DNA from: Tolypothrix sp. PCC 7712
GTDB lineage: Bacteria; Cyanobacteriota; Cyanobacteriia; Cyanobacteriales; Nostocaceae
DNA: 64,000 nucleotides
Direction: 5' to 3'
NCBI RefSeq assembly: GCF_025860405.1
Contig: NZ_CP063785.1
Span: 2,976,001 to 3,040,000, forward strand
The translations under genes and the position numbers were made by a program. Below, one piece after another: positions 5,807-60,929 of this stretch. Position 1 is the first letter of the stretch; every line of letters starts with the position of its first letter. Under the pieces are notes generated by a model. The model did not search any database, was not told the origin of the DNA, and saw nothing but the letters and a program-made list of their open reading frames with translations.

Positions 5807-6235
5807 TCAATCTCCCATTTCTTCTCGCAATAAGGCGCGGAATCCGGCTTGCTGAAAATGTTCGTTGGCGGTTAAGGCTTCGGTAATTCCGCCGTATTGC
5901 ATGACAATAAAAGATACGCAATCAACAAAGCTCCATTCTTTTTCGGAGCGATCGCAATATAGTTGAAAAGCTCTATCGTAAAGTTCTGGAGATAACGGTA
6001 CAATTGCAACTTTCGAGTCTGCTGCTAGGGCATTTAATAAGGTAACTGCACCATGACGAAATGGCTGTTTGCATAGGAGATTGCCGATTTCTAGCATCAC
6101 AGCTTGGGTAGTTACCAAGCGTGTACCGGCGGTTTCTAAAATTTCTGCGAGATGCACAGCACGTCTATGTAATTTATCTTGCGGTGCAGATAAGGCGATC
6201 GCAAATGTTGTATCAAGAAAGACTTCAGACTTCAT
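5807..6235 (-). CDS. PIN-domain protein, VapC-type toxin candidate
   Basis: A 142-residue PIN-domain protein. The N-terminal FLDTTFAIAL with Asp8, the central LEIGNLL acidic residue and the C-terminal FVDCVSF Asp match the VapC acidic cluster that coordinates metal for RNA cleavage; the fourth position reads ALTANEHF, where Asp is more usual. The antitoxin-like gene lies 16 bases upstream on the same strand. Family members are ribonucleases of type II toxin-antitoxin systems. Whether this one is toxic cannot be told from sequence. Confidence 0.85.
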   Translation of the reverse strand: MKSEVFLDTTFAIALSAPQDKLHRRAVHLAEILETAGTRLVTTQAVMLEIGNLLCKQPFRHGAVTLLNALAADSKVAIVPLSPELYDRAFQLYCDRSEKEWSFVDCVSFIVMQYGGITEALTANEHFQQAGFRALLREEMGD

Positions 6236-6251
6236 GCTGAATTTCTGAACC

Positions 6252-6458
6252 TTATAAATATTTGTCGATGTTGGTAGACCAATCAGTCGGCCCTGAAAGA
6301 TTCAGCGATCGCGCGGTCTGCAAGAATGATACACTTTCCTGCTTCTCAGGCGGTAAAATTTCGATACTCAACCGCACACGAGTATTGTTTGGTAATGCGA
6401 TCGGTTCAATAGGATAGAATACTCTGCCATCAAATACGGCTGTGATTTTATCTGCCAT
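6252..6458 (-). CDS. DUF104/AF2212-like putative antitoxin
   Basis: A 68-residue protein starting MADKITAVFDGRVFYP, with the short beta-strand pattern (F-DG-VF-P--P--LP--T-V-L-I) of the AF2212-like antitoxin family. I chose the ATG at 6458 because a GGGA-type ribosome site lies just upstream and the longer frame adds only seven unconserved residues. It precedes the PIN gene, the usual antitoxin-toxin order. The C-terminal tail (SLNLSGPTDWSTNIDKYL) probably contacts the toxin, by analogy with other VapB-like proteins. Confidence 0.75.
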   Translation of the reverse strand: MADKITAVFDGRVFYPIEPIALPNNTRVRLSIEILPPEKQESVSFLQTARSLNLSGPTDWSTNIDKYL

Positions 6459-6506
6459 GATTTTCCCAAAGCGCTGCAATTATATCCTAGTCTGGTTGTG
6501 TACTGA

Positions 6507-6597
6507 AGGGGGAAGGGTGAAGGGGGAAGGGGGAAAGGGGAAGGGTGAAAGGGGAAAGGGGAAAGGGGAAAGGGGAAAGGGGAAGGGTGAAAGGGGA
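6507..6597. repeat. STRR heptamer tract GGGGAAA
   Basis: About a dozen GGGGAAA/GGGTGAA heptamers in tandem upstream of the antitoxin gene. Low complexity, no coding signal. It adjoins the nested inverted-repeat block that starts at 6604. Confidence 0.85.
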
Positions 6598-6728
6598 AAT
6601 TTTATACCAATTTGAAAAAAGAATGCGACAGATTGTAGGGGCATGGGCATTACCATTGGTGTCAACTTAATGTGAAACCAGCTTGGTTGCAAGGTTTTGC
6701 CCTCACCCCCAGCCCCTCTCCCACACGG

Positions 6729-6952
6729 CTACGGTGTACACAGAAGTCTTGAAATCCTACCTGGAAGGGAGTTTTAAACTCAGATAAAAATCGCTCAAAA
6801 CCTGTCATTGCGAGCGAAGCGTTCGCGTAGCGTCTCGAAGAGAAGCAATCCCAGCACCAAGCGATTGCTTCGTCGTTCCTCCTCGCAATGACGATTTCAG
6901 GGGCTTGAAATCCCTGAAACGTATGCGGAGAGTACTTGTGTGTACACCGTAG
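6729..6952. mobile_element. Inner element with 14-bp terminal repeats and 11-bp direct duplication
   Basis: CTACGGTGTACACA at 6729-6742 is mirrored by TGTGTACACCGTAG at 6939-6952. CTCCCACACGG is repeated immediately outside both ends (6718-6728 and 6953-6963), as expected for an 11-base target duplication. The 224-bp element is non-coding and interrupts the palindromic block around it. Confidence 0.78.
6804..6892. repeat. Innermost palindromic repeat GTCATTGCGAG...CTCGCAATGAC
   Basis: An 11-bp perfect inverted repeat encloses a GC-rich core (AGCGTCTCGAAGAGAAGCAATC). Related copies lie at 11540-11658 and, degenerate, near 13835. It is the centre of the nested stack. Confidence 0.8.
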
Positions 6953-7336
6953 CTCCCACACGGAGAGGGGAGTAAGAGATTTAGTTCCCCTTCTCCTGCG
7001 GGAGAAGGGGTTAGGGGATGAGGGCGCGAGGTATTTGTACAACGCTCACCCTATATAGCTTTTAGCTTAAGTTGACACCAATGGGGCATTGCCCTGCCCT
7101 CTAGAATATTATTGATATGTCGCATACATTATTTGATTTGGTATTACCCTAGCCATTGATGGTTAGGGTAGGAATCAGGGAAAGCTGGATTTTTTTGCAA
7201 AGGCTTGTGCCAATTTTAACTTCATTGTTTATCGTTTCTTTGGTCAATTTTTTAATATACAAATACCCAAAAATTTTTAGTCAGAGAACAGTCAGCCATT
7301 TTGGAGAATTGAACATCCAAAATCCAAAATTTTTTG

Positions 7337-7987
7337 TCAAATCTTGCAAGATACCCAAATACCACGGCCATGTTTGGCAAATTCATCGATGGTTTGCAGT
7401 GATAGCTCGTGATTGGTCATATTTTGCAGCATTGCCAATGGTAGAGTGAGAGAATTTGCACCCGCTTGGAGGGAAGCTACTGCTTCTTCTGGAGATTTAA
7501 TACTAGCCGCCATAATTTTTGTATCGCTACCTTTGACCACATTAGCCATTTGCTGCACTAAGGCTATGCCATCACCTAAAAGTTTAGTAGCTCGATTAAC
7601 ATAGGCGATCGCATATTTTGCACCCGCTTCTTTGGCTATTGCGGCTTGCGCTGCACTATAAATTCCTGTCACCGCACAGGGAATTTCCCCCTGTAATGCT
7701 GCAACAACCTGAAAACCAACTAATGCTGCAGGAATTTTTAATATAGTTTGCTGACCAATAATTCCAAAAGCCGCCCGCCCTTCTGCTAACATCTCATCAA
7801 AATCGGATGACATTAGCTGGTAAAACAATGGGCCTGTAGTTAACTGTGCTAATCGTTTGAGTGTAGTCTCTACTGGTAAATCGCTTTTTGCTAAAAGAGT
7901 TGGGTTGGTTGTGATACCTTTTACCCAACCCAATTCCTTAGCAGCCTGAGCTTCAGCGATAATTGCCGAATCGAGATAAATGCTCAC
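7337..7987 (-). CDS. Transaldolase/fructose-6-phosphate aldolase-like protein
   Basis: A 216-residue TIM-barrel protein of the short transaldolase (FSA/TalC) subfamily. It begins SIYLDSA and keeps GITTNPTLLAK, the Schiff-base lysine strand ILKIPAA, and VNRATKLLGDG. Family members make or cleave fructose 6-phosphate or transfer a dihydroxyacetone unit. I prefer the GTG at 7987, because a GGAG site lies six bases before it and family proteins start at this point; a TTG at 7999 gives four extra residues. Cyanobacterial pentose-phosphate transaldolase is usually the longer type, so this may be a separate aldolase or a transaldolase-like protein. Confidence 0.85.
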   Translation of the reverse strand: MSIYLDSAIIAEAQAAKELGWVKGITTNPTLLAKSDLPVETTLKRLAQLTTGPLFYQLMSSDFDEMLAEGRAAFGIIGQQTILKIPAALVGFQVVAALQGEIPCAVTGIYSAAQAAIAKEAGAKYAIAYVNRATKLLGDGIALVQQMANVVKGSDTKIMAASIKSPEEAVASLQAGANSLTLPLAMLQNMTNHELSLQTIDEFAKHGRGIWVSCKI

Positions 7988-8032
7988 GTTTTGCTCCAAA
8001 GAAAGGTGATTTCGCTGTCATTTTACAGCTGA

Positions 8033-11301: not shown

Positions 11302-11416
11302 GCCAGGGGGCAAGGGTCAGAGAAAAGGAATAGTAGTGATGAGTCTACAAATTGAATAATTTATGTTTACAATTTCCCCTTAAGGAAGAATTACTATCTT
11401 CCAACCCCCAAATTTA

Positions 11417-11515
11417 ATACCAAATCAAATAATGTTTGCGACACATCAATAATATTCTAGAGCGCACGGCGTGTCATACTCCTACAATTTGTCGCATTCT
11501 TTTTTCAAATTGGTA
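11417..11515. mobile_element. MITE-like element (ATACCAAAT family), copy B
   Basis: Runs from ATACCAAATCAAATAATG to TTTTTTCAAATTGGTA. Terminal inverted repeats (ATACCAAtT/ AATTGGTAt) and sub-terminal GCGACA/TGTCGC are shared with the other copies. About 100 bp, non-coding. Confidence 0.85.
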
Positions 11516-11526
11516 AGTAACCACGC

Positions 11527-11675
11527 AAAATTAATTACAGTCATTGCGAGCGCAGCGTAAAGCCTTCGGCATAGCTTCGCTTAACGCGTAGCGTCTCGAA
11601 GAGAAGCAATCTCAACCCTTGCGATTGCTTCATTCCGCTCCGCTCCATTCGCAATGACATTTTGTAATTAATTTT
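11527..11675. repeat. Palindromic element with AAAATTAATTACA ends
   Basis: A 13-bp perfect inverted repeat (AAAATTAATTACA / TGTAATTAATTTT) surrounds the GTCATTGCGAG...TCGCAATGAC repeat (11540-11658), the type also found innermost at 6804. The core includes AGCGTCTCGAAGAGAAGCAATC. Confidence 0.8.
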
Positions 11676-11696
11676 GTTTAACTACTTATTACTCAA

Positions 11697-11794: not shown

Positions 11795-11803
11795 AATTCA
11801 GTG

Positions 11804-11907
11804 ATACCAAATCAAATAATGTTTGCGACACATCAATCAATAATATTCTAGAGGGCACAGCGTGCCATACTCCTACAATCTGTCGCATTCTTTTTTCAAA
11901 TTGGTAT
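11804..11907. mobile_element. MITE-like element, copy C
   Basis: Nearly identical to copy B with a four-base duplication (ATCAATCAATAATATT). Ends ATACCAAATCAAATAATG and TTTTTTCAAATTGGTAT. The close similarity to copy B, 290 bp away, suggests recent movement. Confidence 0.85.
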
Positions 11908-12055
11908 AACATCTTACTCCTAGCCTAATTACAAGTTATATCCCAAGGTAAAATACCACAACCAAGAAATGAAGAGCTATCTTTCCAGTCAACTGTCTAC
12001 TTTCAACAGTATTTTCAAGTCATACCAAGTTGGAATGCTAGGAGTTAAACTGAAT

Positions 12056-60489: not shown

Positions 60490-60600
60490 AGTCAGTAGGG
60501 TCATCATAATATTTGTGCCCTCAAAATCATCTCTACCCAAAAAAATTACAATCTGCTACTAAATCTTGTGGGGTGGGCATCTTGCCCGCCTCATTATGTA

Positions 60601-60700
60601 ATACCAATTTGAAATAAAAATGCTACATATTGTAGAGGCACTGCATTGCCCTTTCCTCGAAAATATATTGATGTGTCGCCAACATTATTTGAATTGGTAT
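60601..60700. mobile_element. MITE-like element, copy E
   Basis: Begins ATACCAATTTGAAATAAAA and ends ATTATTTGAATTGGTAT. It has the same end structure as the copy interrupted at 6604. The gap 60490-60929 also holds a partial GGTGCGTTAGCGATAGCGTAA palindrome near 60805 and an STRR (60867-60899). Confidence 0.8.
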
Positions 60701-60929
60701 AATTTGTATATCTCAAACCTGATTATTAAAGTATTTTTGCAATCTCAAACATATTTAAACAAATATCTAAAACCGAATTATTGCTAAATTTTTAAGTCCA
60801 GTATGGTGCGTTAGCGATAGCGTAATTTACCATATTTTTAGGTGCATTACTCATTTATCTTCTTACTCAGAACTCAGCACTCAGAACTCAGCACTCAGAT
60901 TATCCCAAGTTGCATAATGAATATTGAAG

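Follow-up and report, generated by a model that had tools for sequence, protein, structure and literature searches.

A stack of nested inverted-repeat elements in Tolypothrix sp. PCC 7712 that probably records three transpositions into palindrome centers

The window analyzed here, a 64,000-nucleotide stretch of the 10.1-Mb genome of Tolypothrix sp. PCC 7712 (G000), contains a non-coding stack of nested inverted-repeat elements at 6604-7144, confirmed by direct reading of the sequence and by a repeat search. Reading of the translations by eye placed a PIN-type ORF (5807-6235) and an upstream partner to the left of the stack, in a region that reaches position ~6460, and to its right an ORF (7337-7999) that is transaldolase-like; judging by their sequences, the left-hand neighbors form a toxin-antitoxin-like pair. 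A tandem GGGGAAA-type heptamer array (6504-6601) adjoins the outermost element, and the same place in a second genome of the genus (G008, locus L211) holds a shorter heptamer stretch of other composition. The DNA fold of the stack had z = -12.65, with an equal or better fold in 0 of 100 shuffles, and searches of the stack against Rfam returned zero matches. A 126-aa minus-strand frame (6662-7042) also runs across the stack, and was taken as spurious because its path crosses the elements named B, D, and E below.

Three transposition levels are present at the locus, A, B, and D from the outside in (Table 1), and they were inserted in the order A, then B, then D. The sequence-only reading had proposed four to five successive insertion events, in an order that could be read. 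Successive insertion and a readable order were borne out, as were empty sites, one of which is the G008 ortholog; the number of events was too high, as a GC-rich block counted as one level is the body of B, while the central palindrome (E) and a 22-bp insert within it are cargo of D. Its preference for transposition over recombination, argued from direct duplications, gained from the duplications found at both the B and D junctions. What it lacked was the rule of nesting, namely that every level sits in the palindrome center of the next-outer level.

Table 1. Features of the nested stack, with positions counted from the first nucleotide of the window.
Feature	Position	Strand	Evidence
A, MITE (about 100 bp without its insert)	~6604-7144		A-only copies in window and genome; uninterrupted G008 ortholog
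B target duplication (9 bp), left copy, GGGCATTAC	6645-6653	+	One mismatch to right copy
B, MITE (about 195 bp without its insert), ends CATTGGTGTCAACTTAA	6654-7083		Repeat search; copies with and without D
B body, GC-rich, two YR hairpins	6700-7024		Present in B copies inspected
D target duplication (11 bp), left copy, CTCCCACACGG, at B hairpin apex	6718-6728	+	Exact repeat
D, MITE, 224 bp, ends CTACGGTGTACACA	6729-6952		End searches, duplications, autonomous relatives
E, palindrome GTCATTGCGAG...CTCGCAATGAC inside D	6804-6892		Same position in ten D copies
22-bp insert GTTCGCGTAGCGTCTCGAAGAG (+/-1 nt) in E left arm	6821-6842	+	Comparison of D copies
D target duplication (11 bp), right copy, CTCCCACACGG	6953-6963	+	Exact repeat
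B target duplication (9 bp), right copy, GGGCATTGC	7084-7092	+	Junction comparison

Element A was bounded by ATACCAATTTG...ATTTGGTAT and had at its center a REP-like palindrome, GTAGGGGCA(C/T)GGGCATTGCCCTGCCC, that is split by B at this locus. Three A-only copies of about 100 bp elsewhere in the window (~11411-11520, ~11798-11912, and ~60596-60705) join both outer halves of the stack, upholding the outer MITE that had been proposed, and dozens of such copies occur genome-wide. In the G008 ortholog, where a neighboring gene was 97% identical, A is intact (GTAGGGGCACGGGCATTGCCCTGCCC). Specifically, BLAST aligned window positions 5820-6654 and 7084-8000 to L211 positions 480-1272 and 1263-2161, respectively; the two flank alignments overlap by 10 bases in L211, which correspond to a single target copy, and the B target is present there once (GGGCATTGC), making this an empty site for B and D together. 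The flanking DNA of another genus-mate (G005) was continuous without A. On the simplest reading of these alignments, A was the first arrival, and B and D would have followed after the split from G008. The flanks of A resembled TNA, but the N bases lend no support to TNA as a target duplication, being equal on the left and right in only ~13 of 30 copies in an alignment counted by eye.

Element B is seated in the center of the A palindrome, with arms (6653-6677 and 7060-7084; 25 nt) that are 88% complementary. An element at 6652-7083 flanked on both sides by GGGCATT had been described previously; the element itself is real, its left limit moves to 6654, and its duplication is the 9-bp pair GGGCATTAC/GGGCATTGC. 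The B ends had at least 118 + 135 (253) own-genome matches with up to two mismatches versus 2 + 2 (4) for the control, and here, as throughout, copy counts from genome searches are lower bounds. Of the 77 B sites sampled from G000 and further genomes, 70 had a duplication of 9 bp and 7 had one of 10 bp. The identity of left and right duplications was 0.93 within a copy versus 0.71 between copies. In its own genome, B was located within A in both orientations (at least 21 A+ and 5 A-) and outside A (at least 20), and BLAST exposed at least about 25-30 B copies without D, in which query position 129 was joined to 354 with an 11-bp overlap, alongside at least about 13 copies with D. The GC-rich block (CCCTCACCCC), previously given a level of its own at about 6700-7026, was rejected as a separate insertion and assigned to the B body because it was present in the B copies inspected and no B without it was found in the own genome. 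The body carries two YR hairpins, the first of which (CCCCTCTCC..GGAGAGGGG) is split by D, with the second (CCCCTTCTCC..GGGAGAAGGGG) at 6987-7010.

Two further observations were made on B in this genome. Six reverse-strand B ends at 187-bp spacing (G000:C1:6136805-6137933) suggest a tandem B array. Additionally, among own-genome copies of B in A, four of six duplication mismatches at the palindrome center were A/T or T/A, such that the copies are reverse complements, a pattern that may have been left by the flipping of a hairpin or by insertion into one that was extruded.

Element D occupies the loop of one of the B hairpins and has 20-nt arms (6728-6747 and 6934-6953) that are 95% complementary; its extent and its 11-base duplication, an exact repeat, had been read correctly from the outset. 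The 14-bp D end motif, with up to one mismatch, was found at least 19 + 19 (38) times in the 10.1-Mb genome versus 1 + 0 for a reversed control, and the exact motif was present in 33 of the 59 genomes searched. At 34 sites, the D duplications were 9-12 bp long with a mode of 11, and nearly all copies had a duplication of their own, with left/right identity of 0.95 within a copy versus 0.63 between copies; one copy, L007, was without matching duplications. The own-genome targets were the B hairpin in at least 12 of 16 cases, and D also entered unrelated hairpins (L033, L059, L093, L098, and L108, the first two being GC hairpins). Entry of D in place at this locus, as opposed to the arrival of a B already holding D, is favored because the D duplication seen here was absent from the other own-genome B+D copies inspected. 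In terms of classification, both B and D are MITEs, being under 500 bp, multicopy, and without a transposase, with terminal inverted repeats and a target duplication. At L008 (G000:C1:5752815-5753063), D and its duplication were followed by a second D left end, that is, two D elements were back to back in one hairpin.

The palindrome at the center of the stack had been read as a separate insertion. It exists as described, and comparison of D copies led us to reject its insertion at this locus: ten D copies of 223-224 bp at different sites, nine of them besides the one studied here, had E at the same position. The 22-bp insert was in the E left arm in 6 of the 10, this locus included, while in L005, L008, and L012 the left arm lacked it and the right arm carried a related insert of 22 bp. 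Because the nine other copies carry E in the same position, E and the insert were on D before its arrival and had become part of it earlier, at another place. We take the 22-bp insert to resemble a small dispersed repeat (SDR), with SDR5 as the candidate, as a lead only. A related copy of E outside D (11585-11662), with the GTCATTGCGAG palindrome, was in another inverted-repeat element of the window (11514-11688), which adjoins one of the A copies.

The placement of B and D followed palindromes of opposite polarity. D was found at the apex of pyrimidine-arm/purine-arm hairpins in 31 of 34 sites and at the opposite polarity in none, while B was at the center of purine/pyrimidine palindromes of the GTAGGGG...CCCCTAC type in 47 of 77 and, again, at the opposite polarity in none. 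The GTAGGGG..CCCCTAC sequence is present in many B targets, and the center of A is a candidate GTAG-tagged REP, a class of stem-loop linked to a tyrosine transposase (RAYT). Relative to shuffled sites, which preserve composition only, palindrome scores were 7.74 versus 3.51 for D targets (p = 6e-18) and 6.74 versus 3.53 for B targets (p = 3e-23), p-values that overstate independence because one and the same A or B element, in its various copies, supplies many of the own-genome targets, leaving the B and D site samples partly non-independent. The targeting argument rests on sites spread across palindromes that are unrelated and across further genomes. Both B and D insert at the axis of a repeated palindrome, as REP-targeting elements do. 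By comparison, the sites of eight IS10-like control elements, which come from the same bacterial family and make duplications of 9 bp, had a random-like mean palindrome score of 3.25.

These placements bear on the possibility that insertion was random and that the palindromes reflect survival, intergenic hairpins being harmless. Such a bias could operate in principle, but insertion within a few bases of the apex, the opposite polarities of D and B with zero crossover (31 versus 0 and 47 versus 0), and the non-palindromic sites of the IS10-like elements make it very improbable as the explanation. It is at least as improbable that A, B, and D form one composite repeat multiplying as a unit. One locus, L002, did match nearly the whole stack at 93%; however, L001 and L002 differed from each other in both junction duplications, as did nearly all other copies, and A alone, A with B but not D, and B with D outside A all occur. 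No fixed composite was seen at many loci, since duplications and orientations vary from copy to copy, and because almost every B or D copy has its own duplication, repeated independent insertion is indicated rather than amplification of one composite. Construction of the stack by template switching or homologous recombination between palindromes, without transposition, seems least probable of all: the palindromes have arms in common, and recombination at inverted repeats does occur here, as shown by the opposite orientations that the E loop, flanked by AGCAATC and GATTGCT, has in the D copies L001 and L004 (CCAGCACCAAGC versus GCTTGGTGCTGG), but the element ends are fixed, the duplications keep a constant length of 9 bp in B and mostly 11 bp in D at sites of unrelated sequence, and a coding IS exists with the same ends and target habit.

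That coding IS belongs to a group of autonomous D-type elements. Three genomes (G003, G018, and G022) contained elements, 1.45-1.57 kb long, that share the D ends and target hairpins; at three of four, the duplication was 10-11 bp long and lay in a hairpin, and the reading frames of those that were translated were broken. Diverged relatives had long open frames in G002 and G006 (471 aa, 71% identity) and in G035 (457 aa, 63%). Moreover, in G002 an intact 446-aa ORF of a D-type IS sits in the same hairpin of B inside A, so that a full-length IS has undergone this nesting too. The protein of the 446-aa ORF matched the Tn5 transposase (E = 8e-35), with AISD, GDRESD, and RWKIEQ blocks that align to those of Tn5, the D-type transposase matched the IS4-family model NF033590 (E = 2e-63), and the 446-aa ORF of L171 contained the Y(2)R(3)E(6)K motif (YGWRWKIEQLFATLK). 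D-type ends (CTACGGTGTACACACAAGTC) fit every fixed position of the IS50 (Tn5) signature, CW------Y---CA-A--W-, and the D duplications, of about one helix turn, are as known for the IS4 family. We file D, as a derivative of such an insertion sequence, only as Tn5-like within that family because its duplication, mostly 11 bp, exceeds the 8-9 bp of the IS50 subgroup. A 279-aa D-type transposase query matched other genomes and had no match in the own genome. The enzyme that mobilized D in trans was most likely a Tn5-like transposase of the IS4 family, with ends that match, which is no longer detected in this genome.

For B, the ends (CATTGGTGT...) agree with the IS4Sa pattern CA------T, and the 9- and 10-bp duplications (70 and 7 of 77 sites) fall within the 8-10 bp of that subgroup. 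B was probably mobilized by an IS4Sa-type transposase, the gene for which was not found. None lay between matching ends among 30 of the 58 PF01609 matches in the own genome, and none was detected in 109 end-bearing stretches of public genomes or among 30 NF033591 loci from 60 genomes of the family. The NF033591 group, being IS10-like with mostly CT ends, was rejected as a partner of B and used as a control only. Separately, a 446-aa DDE_Tnp_1 IS (L209, L202, and others) with ends TTAACCCTSTTTTGTCACTCT had at least about 30 own-genome matches, and the flanks of its L209 copy extend as a longer palindrome, GCGATTAACCC...GGGTTAATCGC.

Insertion sequences that target REPs are already known; what is new here is why the elements nest, that is, the target rule of D and B. 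The closest parallel is ISRm22, an IS4-family element placed in IS4Sa (PMC2266710), all nine of whose copies lie in REPs (PMC1525189, PMC2266710), and which likewise enters repetitive extragenic palindromes on their axis of symmetry. It differs in a reported duplication of 6 bp, versus 9 bp for B and 11 bp for D, and in that the target palindromes here are inside MITEs, with two families of opposite polarity stacked and inserts that are mostly MITEs themselves. The D-type transposase shares homology, the YREK motif, and the end signature with IS50/Tn5, but D duplications are 9-12 bp, mostly 11, against 8-9 bp for the IS50 subgroup and 7-13 bp across IS4 subgroups (PMC2266710), and D is strongly selective for hairpin apices whereas Tn5 is described as having a bias toward palindromes and GC pairs. 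In Coxiella burnetii, IS1111 enters a GTAG-type REP within the MITE QMITE2 (PMC10969869), similarly an IS inside a REP carried by a MITE, although of another IS family and at a single level. The Y-R-R layout of the B hairpins recalls the intrastrand triplex motifs CCCTCNCCC(N3-6)GGGNGAGGG(N3)GGGNGAGGG that are abundant in cyanobacteria (PMC4666352), although the B arms depart from the strict motif. More generally, the stack resembles cyanobacterial SDRs and Nezha MITEs as very small mobile repeats. Searching the literature with the element sequences turned up no relevant match among the listed papers, and the literature searched held no report of recursive palindrome-in-palindrome stacking, a weak absence as a key cyanobacterial repeat paper was outside the search.

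We consider it highly probable (roughly 0.9) that three transpositions followed one another at this locus, each targeting a palindrome center. MITE A would have entered between the toxin-antitoxin-like pair and the transaldolase-like gene, bringing the REP-like palindrome GTAGGGGCA.GGGCATTGCCCTGCCC. MITE B would then have inserted into the axis of that palindrome, a staggered cut generating the 9-bp duplication, and would have brought two GC-rich hairpins, into the first of which, at its apex, MITE D, already with the GTCATTGCGAG palindrome and the 22-bp insert, would have inserted with an 11-bp duplication. Cut-and-paste chemistry and mobilization in trans appear to underlie these steps, and the nesting itself would arise from target supply, with each element providing the preferred target palindrome of the next. 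More speculatively, and with considerably more doubt than confidence, a cyanobacterial Tn5-like lineage may recognize extruded Y/R hairpins, or triplex-prone DNA, as a structure, in which case palindromes would act as landing pads for self-propagating nesting and the formation of mosaic repeats.

If it is true that a Tn5-like enzyme reads hairpin apices, a transposase in wide laboratory use would have a relative that selects its targets, and recognition of structure versus sequence could be compared directly with Tn5. The duplications offer a relative clock for repeat families that are free of genes. For cyanobacterial genomes, the arrangement provides a testable reason for their mosaic short repeats, namely that each carries the favorite target of another element.
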